Source: Roseburia sp.
GTDB taxonomy: Bacteria > Bacillota > Clostridia > Oscillospirales > Ruminococcaceae
Reading direction: 5' to 3'
NCBI GenBank assembly: GCA_023666265.1
Contig: JAMPCH010000003.1
Coordinates: 1-64,000, forward strand
DNA: 64,000 nucleotides
A program made the position numbers and the translations under genes. Positions within the stretch are counted from its first letter, which is position 1, and each line of letters begins with the position of its first letter. Shown here one piece after another: positions 10,350 through 53,810 of this stretch. The notes under the pieces were generated by a model. It made no database searches. It worked only from the letters and a program-made list of their open reading frames with translations, and had not been told where the DNA came from.

Positions 10350-10363
10350 AATTTCCATACTTT

Positions 10364-10668
10364 TTAAGGCTACACCGCATAATTATTGTCGTTCGAGTGG
10401 CAGTCAGAGGTTTTTCTGACATTCGCTTTGTTTTGCGCCGCGTCCGTGCGGCGCTTGGGGCGAATGTCACGCAACATCCTGTTGCGGTCAGATTGTACCG
10501 ATTTTATGCAGGAAGGCTGACCTGTCGGTCAGCCCCTCTGTCACTGCGTGACACCTCCCCCGCCCGGGGGAGACCACCTTTCAAAAAAATTCTGTGCGAT
10601 ATGGCGGAAAATATGGCTGTCAATCGGACGGCAAAGGCGTAGCCGGTAATTGTGCGGTGTTGCCTTAA
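10364..10668. mobile_element. MITE-like repeat family A, copy 1 (305 bp)
   Basis: The element begins TTAAGGCTACACCGCATAAT and ends with the complement of TTAAGGCAACACCGCACAAT, giving ~20-base terminal inverted repeats with two mismatches. Copy 2 (19423-19601) is the same element in the opposite orientation and matches along its length. Copy 1 carries two extra blocks of about 69 and 55 bases, each made of small hairpins (for example CTCCCCCGCCCGGGGGAG near 10555). It holds no transposase. Small ORFs reading MAENMAV... in it are by-products of the repeat. It lies 2 bases after the stop of the gene at 10671. Confidence 0.85.
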
Positions 10669-11071: not shown

Positions 11072-11145
11072 TCCGAAGAATAAAATTCTTATTTTACGGA
11101 GTTTTTTCCGTTTTGGAATAGAATTTTGCCGCTTGTCCAATACTT

Positions 11146-11275
11146 GTTACGGAACTGACAGCGGGGTCACCCCGTATTTATATATCCCAATTTCCGCAAT
11201 CTCGTTACTACGAGGCAGAAACCCGCCACTTACTCAAAAGTCGTTACGGAACTGACAGCGGAGGTACTCCGCCCA
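11146..11275. repeat. Dispersed repeat family B, copy 1
   Basis: A perfect 19-base direct repeat GTTACGGAACTGACAGCGG occurs at 11146-11164 and 11243-11261. Each copy is followed by a small hairpin (CGGGGTCACCCCG and GCGGAGGTACTCCGC). Between them lies CTCGTTACTACGAGGCAGA. A diverged second copy of the whole arrangement lies at 48303-48432. The right half of this copy encodes the last residues and stop codon of the lipoprotein gene 11230-12780. Confidence 0.75.
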
Positions 11276-19422: not shown

Positions 19423-19601
19423 TTAAGGCAACACCGCACAATTAACGCCTGCGGCTTTGTCGTCCCGTCGACAGCCATATTTTCCGTCATATTGCACCGA
19501 TTTTCTTTGAAAGGCGTCAGCCTTCCTGCATCAAATCGGCACAATCTGACAAAAAATCTGACTGCCGCCGGAACGACAATAATTATGCGGTGTAGCCTTA
19601 A
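19423..19601. mobile_element. MITE-like repeat family A, copy 2 (179 bp)
   Basis: It begins TTAAGGCAACACCGCACAAT and ends with the complement of TTAAGGCTACACCGCATAAT, the same two ends as copy A1 but inverted. Inside, GCAGTCAGA, the TGCAGGAAGGCTGAC segment and GGAAAATATGGCTGTC are shared with copy A1. It lacks the two extra hairpin blocks of A1. The following 19602-19757 contains an AAAACGTG/CACGTTTT inverted repeat and a GC-rich stretch ending GTACTGCCTTAA, and no gene. Confidence 0.85.
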
Positions 19602-19757
19602 AAAACGTGCACCGATCCTATTGAGACACGTTTTAAAGCCCGGACGGGCGACGCCGCCGCGCCGTAGGTCATACCCGCGAGCCGGGGGCGGGGCGCAGTA
19701 CTGCCTTAAAAAATAAACCACAAATTTACAGACTTTTAAGAAAGGATCGATCGAGAC

Positions 19758-24398: not shown

Positions 24399-24407
24399 TT
24401 TTATGAC

Positions 24408-24505
24408 CATTCCCTTCCTCTGGAGGCAGTTTGTGCCGAGAAGTGTAGCTTTGCTACGCCGAGGCACAAACAACGGGTTTGAAAAATCTTCGATTTTTCA
24501 AACTT
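24408..24505 (-). repeat. Dispersed double-hairpin repeat family C, copy 1
   Basis: Read on the minus strand, the element has a perfect 12-bp hairpin GTTTGAAAAATC/GATTTTTCAAAC with loop GAA. A second hairpin TTTGTGCC/GGCACAAA encloses a variable inner stem GTAGC/GCTAC, and an RBS-like AGAGGAAGGG follows. Copy C2 (53710-53797) is nearly identical except in the inner stem. Here the first hairpin contains the stop codon of the upstream isomerase gene, and the element supplies the RBS of ThuA. Confidence 0.8.
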
Positions 24506-25304
24506 CCCACCTCGTTAGATTTTCCGCCGATCGCCGAATGTCCGCAAGCTGATCCGCCGAGCCGAAATGCTCGATCGCGAGCCAGCCCCGATACCCGTCC
24601 GCGAGAAGCGCGCGGACGATCGGCTCGATCTTTACCGTTCCCTCGCCGACGGCGGCGGGGTACATTTTTTCGCCCGTGACCGCTTCCTTTTCCTCCTCGC
24701 CCGGGCGAAGGGGAGCGCGTCGGCGATCCTTACAATGGAGGTGGACGATCCGAGGCTTTAGCCGCCCAAAAGCGCTAAGCTCGTCCTCGCCCGAATAGCG
24801 AAAATTCCCCGTGTCGAACGCACAGCCGAGCCGAGGGAGCTTATCCAAAAAATACAAAAGCCCGTCGGCGGTCGAAAAGGGCGCGTTCTCGTCGTCAAAG
24901 TCCTCGAGACAGACCGCGATCCCCCGCGTCTTGGCGCTTTCGATCAGTCGCTCCATACCCTCGATCATGCGATTGAGGACGGCGCGGCGGTCGTCGCCCG
25001 GGGCGAAAAAGCCCGGGATCGCCATCAAAAGGCGGATCGCGTTTTTGTCAAGCGCATCTAACACCGCCTCGATCCGCGCCGTGTCGTCGGAATGTCCGAA
25101 GTCAAAAAACGCGTAAACACACGCGATCTCCAGCCCGCTTTCGCGCAGTAGCCGAGGGAGACGCGGGTTGTCGTTTAGGCGCTCGTGATCGAGCTCAACG
25201 CCGCCGATCCCGAGGGCGCGGACGGTTCGTAGGATCTCGCCGAGCGGCTTCCCGCTCTGACGCGCCGCCTCGTATAAATGCTCTGTAAATACGGATAGTT
25301 TCAA
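24498..25304 (-). CDS. Sugar phosphate isomerase/epimerase (xylose isomerase-like TIM barrel)
   Basis: The 268-residue protein fits the AP endonuclease 2/IolE-type TIM-barrel family: KPLGEILRTVRALGIGGVEL near the N-terminus, SGLEIACVYAFFDFGH, GIAVCLEDFDDENAPF with a metal-ligand Glu, GCAFDTGNFRY with Asp and Asn, then IVHLHCKDRRR and GWLAIEHFG with the final ligand Glu. These metal-binding residues are in the expected order. Substrate specificity cannot be told. The last codons (Glu-Val-stop) fall in repeat C1: its hairpin supplies the TGA. It stands between PAP2 and ThuA genes on the same strand. Confidence 0.88.
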   Translation of the reverse strand: MKLSVFTEHLYEAARQSGKPLGEILRTVRALGIGGVELDHERLNDNPRLPRLLRESGLEIACVYAFFDFGHSDDTARIEAVLDALDKNAIRLLMAIPGFFAPGDDRRAVLNRMIEGMERLIESAKTRGIAVCLEDFDDENAPFSTADGLLYFLDKLPRLGCAFDTGNFRYSGEDELSAFGRLKPRIVHLHCKDRRRAPLRPGEEEKEAVTGEKMYPAAVGEGTVKIEPIVRALLADGYRGWLAIEHFGSADQLADIRRSAENLTRWEV

Positions 25305-48306: not shown

Positions 48307-48432
48307 CGGAACTGTCGATGGAGGTGCTTCGACTTCTTGATAACTCGTTTTTCGCGATCTTGTTACTGCGAGGCAGAGACCAACGCTTTAAACAAATGTT
48401 GCCACGGAATTTCCGGCGGAGGTACTCCGCTA
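48303..48432. repeat. Dispersed repeat family B, copy 2
   Basis: It shares CGGAACTG, the ATCTTGTTACTGCGAGGCAG segment and GCGGAGGTACTCCGC with copy B1 at 11146-11275, in the same order and orientation. Overall similarity is clear but lower than for families A and C. The stop codon of the small membrane-protein gene (48430-48432) lies at its right edge. Confidence 0.7.
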
Positions 48433-53700: not shown

Positions 53701-53709
53701 AATTATAAT

Positions 53710-53797
53710 CATTCCTTTCCTCTGGAGGCAGTTTGTGCCGAGAGGATTTGCCGAGGCACAAACAACGGGTTTGAAAAATCTTCGATTTTTCAAACTT
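53710..53797 (-). repeat. Dispersed double-hairpin repeat family C, copy 2
   Basis: Same architecture as copy C1 (24408-24505): hairpin GTTTGAAAAATC/GATTTTTCAAAC, then TTTGTGCC/GGCACAAA, then AGAGGAAAGGA before an ATG. The inner variable stem of C1 is replaced by a short AAATCC loop. It lies between the P-loop protein gene (ends 53811) and the YfcE-like gene. Confidence 0.8.
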
Positions 53798-53810
53798 TTT
53801 TCTCCTTCTT

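Follow-up and report, generated by a model that had tools for sequence, protein, structure and literature searches.

The window analyzed here is a stretch of 64,000 nucleotides from Roseburia sp. (positions 1 to 64,000 of contig JAMPCH010000003.1), and its genome of origin, designated G000, comprises 2.81 Mb in 98 contigs. The window carries two copies, C1 and C2, of a short element with two hairpins, each on the minus strand and shortly upstream of a start codon. C1 separates a gene for a xylose-isomerase-like TIM barrel protein (PF01261, 24498..25304, minus strand) from a downstream thuA-like gene of the ThuA family (PF06283, 23697..24398, minus strand). C2 precedes a gene for a YfcE-type calcineurin-like phosphoesterase (PF12850, 53215..53700, minus strand), which is itself preceded by a gene whose protein has weak AAA-domain matches. 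A first-pass annotation of the sequence had described both copies on this strand and named these genes, and the copies were found where it placed them, with Pfam supporting all three gene identities. The bounds it gave (24408-24505 and 53710-53797) are right as to location, but the element proper occupies 24401..24503 (C1, 103 nt, GTTTGAAA...GGTCATAA) and 53703..53795 (C2, 93 nt).

Read along the minus strand, both copies begin with hairpin 1 (GTTTGAAAAATC-GAA-GATTTTTCAAAC; 24477..24503 in C1 and 53769..53795 in C2), which forms the left terminus of the element. It is followed by CCGTTG and by hairpin 2 (TTTGTGCC...GGCACAAA; 24430..24470 and 53732..53762). As had been noticed, the outer arms of hairpin 2 enclose a variable inner part, which is short in C2, longer in C1, and about 80 nt long or almost fully deleted in other copies. 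Next come CTGCCTCCAGAGG-AA[A/G]GGA-ATG-[A/G]T[C/T]-ATAA, two bases, and the ATG of the gene. Downstream of hairpin 2 in C1 are a Shine-Dalgarno (SD) sequence borne by the element (AGAGGAAGGGA, 24411..24421), conserved among the family copies read, and the right end (ATGGTCATAA, 24401..24410). The right end contains an ATG (24410-24408; 53712-53710 in C2) that lies 12 nt upstream of the gene's ATG and in the same frame. The two bases that separate the element from the gene's ATG, here termed NN, are AA in C1 (24399..24400). The near-identity claimed for the two copies amounts to 48 of 48 bases over hairpin 1 and the 5' arm of hairpin 2, and to 89% over the 3' 47 nt. Predicted fold stability corresponds to z scores of -4.1 for C1 and -2.8 for C2.

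Copies in the genome and their insertion site

A homology search of G000 revealed a family of about 35 copies, which have no capacity to encode a transposase; the family copies measured are 57-262 nt long. Several contigs of the assembly terminate in copies, as is usual for repeats. To describe the insertion site, we used the 27 copies that were readable across both ends; these were found by homology, and an ATG was not required. In 23 of the 27, the gene's ATG, opening an open reading frame (ORF) of at least 80 codons, lies exactly 2 nt beyond the element. All 27 have the same orientation relative to the following gene, so the random sites and orientations that would have spoken against a specific placement were not seen. 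The 3' motif AAGGAATGRTYATAANNATG, with at most one mismatch, occurs 37 times in G000, versus 0 times for a reversed control pattern. The downstream genes, identified by eye from their translations, are unrelated: they include argS (arginyl-tRNA synthetase), aroA (EPSP synthase), thiD, def (peptide deformylase), transporters, a phage portal protein, and others.

An SD sequence terminates the left flank of nearly every copy, and pairing of the left flanks with the anti-SD averages -9.9 kcal/mol, compared with -3.3 kcal/mol at random positions. When copies are excised in silico, the spacing between this SD and the ATG becomes 4-15 nt (5-9 nt in 20 of 25). The element therefore sits between the SD and the ATG of the gene that it precedes. 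For C1, the severed native SD is GAGG (24510..24513, minus strand), an assignment whose basis includes the element-free orthologs at loci L066 and L067; for C2, it is GGAG (53802..53805, minus strand), and orthologs of the phosphodiesterase gene have an uninterrupted SD-ATG. The bases immediately left of C1 are an AA dinucleotide (24504..24505, minus strand), which is repeated as the final two bases of the element (CATAA). Across 54 left flanks, A accounts for 94% at each of these two positions, which we call the AA core. A classic target duplication exceeding this core was ruled out, as the left and right flanks show no repeat. Most copies place their own ATG 12 nt from that of the gene and in its frame; in a few, the distance is 11 nt and the two are out of frame. 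One long-type copy, L020, holds a nested palindromic insert of about 105 nt (ATACTGATATGCAATTAAAA...TTTTAATTGCAGATCAGTAT) in its inner loop, which is apparently another miniature element.

Empty sites were found in relatives. In two genomes of the same genus (G004 and G021), the isomerase ORF runs straight into the start of the thuA ortholog, and the start reads AAGGAGTGGTATA-ATG and AAGGAGTGGTATC-ATG, respectively, where G000 has ACGAGGTGGGAA-[element]-ATG. Excision of C1 from G000 yields ...TGG-GAA-AAA-TGA-TC, a classical ATGA stop/start overlap. The isomerase ORF has thus had its final codon and stop replaced by the insertion of C1, and now terminates at a TGA (24498-24500, minus strand) within the GTTTGA of hairpin 1, as the first-pass annotation had observed. 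Orthologs of the C2 gene likewise have an ordinary SD close before the ATG and no element. Because orthologous sites are free of the element, we conclude that it is inserted DNA and not an ancestral leader. The mobility, gene-junction specificity, unrelated downstream genes, and SD carriage proposed for the repeat are thus upheld by the copy number, the single orientation, and the empty site.

Autonomous IS110 elements and candidate guides

A genome from another family of the order (G037) has only the last 20 or so nucleotides in common with the element, GGAAAGGAATGGTCATAA-NN-ATG. There, the GGAAAGGAATGGTCATAA end belongs to a longer element that encodes a 414-aa protein on the opposite strand. 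The protein, tested for one element, matches DEDD_Tnp_IS110 (PF01548) and Transposase_20 (PF02371), and aligns with the recombinase of the insertion sequence (IS) IS621 (PDB 8wt6), keeping the catalytic Glu, two Asp, and Ser positions; it is an IS110-family recombinase. Scanning genome contigs for the 3' motif gave at least 111 loci, chiefly in Clostridia, and a scan of viral contigs for the element gave two. The pattern used for the 111 loci required NN-ATG, and the frequency at start codons was taken instead from the SD on the left side and from the G000 copies.

Complete autonomous elements measure about 1640-1650 bp; their first bases, AAG[G/T]TTGAAA, abut an SD, and their other end reads CATAA-NN-ATG. 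We read AAG[G/T]TTGAAA together with the GGAAAGGAATGGTCATAA end at L084, L095, L105, L114, L144, L157, and L162, and, with one mismatch, at L192, which is from the same genus as the window. Both ends also occur in miniature or partly deleted forms of 57-444 nt, and miniature and autonomous forms agree in target preference, having an SD to their left and NN-ATG to their right. Relatives of the recombinase are present in 8 of 71 genomes of the window's own genus. In one of these (G074), both junctions of an IS at an SD^ATG site can be read, GGAGGTGAAA|AAGTTTGAAAC and AGAAAGGAATGGTCATAA|CA|ATG. The same site arrangement is found for annotated plasmid IS110s of Roseburia sp. 831b, Lactococcus lactis LB7, and Enterococcus raffinosus CX012922. 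At six loci (L088, L091, L100, L122, L130, and L161), there is a miniature form of about 140-165 nt in which the right end recurs internally in inverted form (TTATGACCATTCCTTT).

Conservation is strong over the roughly 300 nt that separate the element end from the recombinase gene. From the alignment, we could draw this region as two hairpins whose internal loops resemble the target and donor loops of bridge RNAs, and we consider it a candidate bridge RNA. One side of the first loop, within the stem GGCACAC...GTGTGCC, reads GUGGAGGUGAG, an SD sequence. The other side reads (A/C/U)AU-NN-UUAUG, in which AU-NN-UU complements AA-NN-AU(G). In 13 of 16 elements, the guide NN is the reverse complement of the NN that precedes the gene's ATG, against a permutation mean of 1.9, and 0 of 100,000 permutations reached 13. 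Agreement is 12 of 15 once identical regions are removed. When two elements from plasmids are included with the 16, it is 15 of 18, and other registers within 30 nt reach at most 3 of 18. By eye, the second (donor) loop carries AACCUU in most elements with an AAGG left end, and AAACUU in two of the four elements read with an AAGT left end (L144 and L192). The putative guide and its agreement with NN fit the published rule for bridge RNAs, whereby the site is set jointly by the core dinucleotide and by a guide on either side, left and right (PMC11208160).

These observations lead us to conclude that C1 and C2 are very probably protein-free elements of about 60-260 nt, similar to miniature inverted-repeat transposable elements (MITEs), that derive from insertion sequences of the IS110 family with a bridge RNA directed at translation starts. 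Direct support comes from the insertion between SD and ATG, the ends in common with autonomous IS110 elements, the guide-target covariation in the latter, and the compensatory changes in the hairpins described below. The first-pass annotation had the placement before a start codon right; it overlooked the insertion between the native SD and ATG, the element's own in-frame ATG, and the IS110-family ends.

Hairpins and the leader frame

Versions of the element particular to other genomes of the genus have stems that diverge in sequence yet still pair. Counting over 24-29 sequences, we found most positions in both stems kept paired, several through two-sided changes, so the covariation anticipated for both hairpins is present. 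Pair 9 of hairpin 1 is A-T in 12 sequences and G-C in 11, pair 11 alternates between T-A and A-T, and pair 12 between C-G and A-T; pair 4 of hairpin 2 is T-A or C-G. Hairpin 1 was present in the MITE lineages read and missing from the autonomous elements read. This confinement suggests that it may have a function of its own, perhaps in mRNA protection, translation coupling, or as an aid to transposition. The idea that hairpin 1 resembles an intrinsic terminator was rejected: only 3 of its 12 pairs are G-C, and it is followed by CCGTTGTTTG instead of a U-run. Rfam gave no match at the gathering score and no credible weak match either, and a known riboswitch or small RNA was rejected on this result.

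The TTGAAA at the left end of the element lies at SD distance from the stranded SD, and in about a dozen copies read, the frame that begins there enters the gene. The same frame meets an early stop in the 103-nt type, and stops after four codons in most copies of genome G012. A conserved leader peptide starting from the TTG of GTTTGAAA was dropped as a candidate, because the frames differ among lineages.

Two further observations concern copies outside G000. At one contig end (L042, G012:C19:1-118), an element is preceded by an inverted partial copy of itself (TTTGAGGCACAAACCAACGGGTTTGAAAG...), which reflects a head-to-head arrangement or else an error of assembly. At L051 and L056 (G015 and G001), two related species carry the element at the same gene with a different NN, which implies either that NN drifts after insertion or that the site was hit twice.

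Mechanism, alternatives, and related systems

We propose that the recombinase and bridge RNA of an IS110 element would act in trans, recognizing the joined ends of the short element (...GGTCAT-AA-G[G/T]TTGAAA...) as donor through the donor loop, and an SD/ATG site as target through the target loop. The target, on the gene strand, would be SD-n-AA-NN-ATG. Recombination at the AA core would yield SD-AA-[G(T/G)TTGAAA...GGTCATAA]-NN-ATG. The native SD would then be separated from the ATG, and the right end would provide a replacement SD (GAGGAAAGGA) and an ATG, usually in frame. A start at this ATG would prepend M-V/I-I-x to the protein. Since the element supplies an SD and a mostly in-frame ATG, the host gene probably stays translated after insertion. 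For IS621, a 22-bp donor works with a bridge RNA given in trans (PMC11208160), which makes an element of about 100 nt with correct ends a plausible substrate.

Several points weigh against this derivation from IS110. Transposition itself was not observed; we infer mobilization in trans, translation from the SD and ATG of the element, and any influence on expression. Searches of the G000 assembly found no PF01548 match, no recombinase homolog, and no bridge-RNA-like sequence, although the copies in this genome are nearly identical and therefore look recent; the partner may have been lost, have diverged, or be unassembled. A clear native SD is missing from about 2 of the 27 copies, and 4 have a disturbed junction with the ATG. 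Five gene starts in G000 (L207, L209, L222, L225, and L233) have just the 3' end of the element, reading AAGGAAAGGAATGGTCATAA-NN-ATG or nearly so, and lack upstream hairpins; these are possibly relics, the only account that our model offers. The agreement of the donor loop, judged by eye, is imperfect, with a mismatch at L084 and a G-T pair needed at L105.

If the repeats were instead non-mobile cis-regulatory leaders, riboswitch-like or regulon-like and inherited vertically upstream of a set of genes, this would accord with their constant orientation and position at every gene, with the stable fold of C1 and C2, and with the compensatory changes in both stems. However, such leaders are contradicted by the empty sites, where orthologs in relatives lack the element. 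The genes are also unrelated, ranging from argS, aroA, and def to that for a phage portal protein, the native SD is left stranded on the far side, the ends are those of insertion sequences, and Rfam gave no match. We therefore regard such leaders as highly improbable. It is also very unlikely that the elements are MITEs moved by another type of transposase (for example, a Y1/IS200-IS605 single-strand type) that merely prefers SD-ATG sites. The palindromic terminus and the failure to find an IS110 recombinase in G000 would suit such an enzyme, but both ends match IS110 elements, and the guide loop of IS110 elements spells out this same rule of AA-NN-ATG after an SD. On anatomical grounds, we had considered IS200/IS605-type ends, attC-like sites, and Rickettsia-type palindromes within ORFs; these were dropped given the IS110 ends and the empty sites.

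A further possibility adds to the IS110 origin and does not compete with it: after spreading in this manner, copies might be retained because translation is tuned by the hairpins together with the SD and ATG of the element. Coupling through the short leader frame from TTG, which the stranded SD could drive, would be one example. The restriction of hairpin 1 to the MITE lineages among the elements read, the preserved stem pairing, and the frames from TTGAAA that reach the gene point in this direction. Moreover, IS900 has a hed ORF that lacks its own ribosome-binding site and start codon, on the strand opposite the transposase (PMC8141618). On the other hand, the leader frame is not conserved, and the hairpins might serve transposition instead. 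We consider domestication of this kind conceivable, although rather doubtful. With similar reserve, we raise the tentative idea that a protein-free family spreads by means of an RNA guide encoding the signature of the ribosome-binding site and start codon. Each insertion would exchange the translation start of the host gene for a portable initiation module with two hairpins, and dozens of unrelated genes would come under shared translational control.

Among known systems, IS900 of Mycobacterium avium subsp. paratuberculosis, also in the IS110 family, has the target motif CATGNNNNNNTCTCCTT (PMC8141618). This motif is the reverse complement of SD-n-ATG, so targeting of SD-ATG sites is already known in the family. 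Like the elements described here, IS900 inserts between an SD and a start codon; unlike C1 and C2, it is full-length, mycobacterial, and encodes its own transposase. We found no description of miniature derivatives of IS900 or of an SD and in-frame ATG borne by it. The autonomous relatives of C1 and C2 resemble IS621 and other bridge-RNA IS110 elements in having a DEDD/Ser recombinase, an upstream non-coding region with two internal loops, and guide-target agreement. IS621 targets repetitive extragenic palindromic (REP) sequences. In contrast, the target here is a translation start and the core is AA, and C1 and C2 have neither recombinase nor bridge RNA. The core dinucleotide of IS621, which is CT, is likewise retained at both ends (PMC11208160). 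Like bacterial MITEs and REP-type palindromic repeats, C1 and C2 are short, multicopy, protein-free, and hairpin-forming, and have ends in common with an autonomous IS; unlike them, their insertion is confined to SD^ATG and the initiation region is rebuilt. A 2024 review of prokaryotic MITEs mentions neither IS110 nor start codons nor Shine-Dalgarno sites (PMC10969869). In the literature that we searched, which did not extend to most subscription papers or to any preprints, we found neither miniature elements derived from IS110 nor bridge-RNA guides for start sites described. The miniature derivatives, the rebuilt initiation region, and the guide explanation appear to be new within that literature, which does not establish priority.

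The SD-like guide and variable NN tie the long-known SD-ATG preference of IS900 to the bridge-RNA mechanism. The elements also seem to overcome the difficulty posed by insertion at an essential site, in that they carry in a new SD and an in-frame ATG. As natural and very small IS110 donors, they are directly testable as bridge-RNA substrates. They also call for caution, as mobile DNA rewrites gene starts, N-termini, and thus annotation in these Bacillota genomes.

The window contains two other sets of repeats. Positions 10361-10668 and 19423-19604 form an inverted repeat pair, 86-94% alike over three segments, that is probably a different dispersed element. Positions 11128-11272 and 48340-48430 belong to a separate repeat family (GTTACGGAACTGACAGCGGAGGTACTCCGC) and are 74-77% alike.
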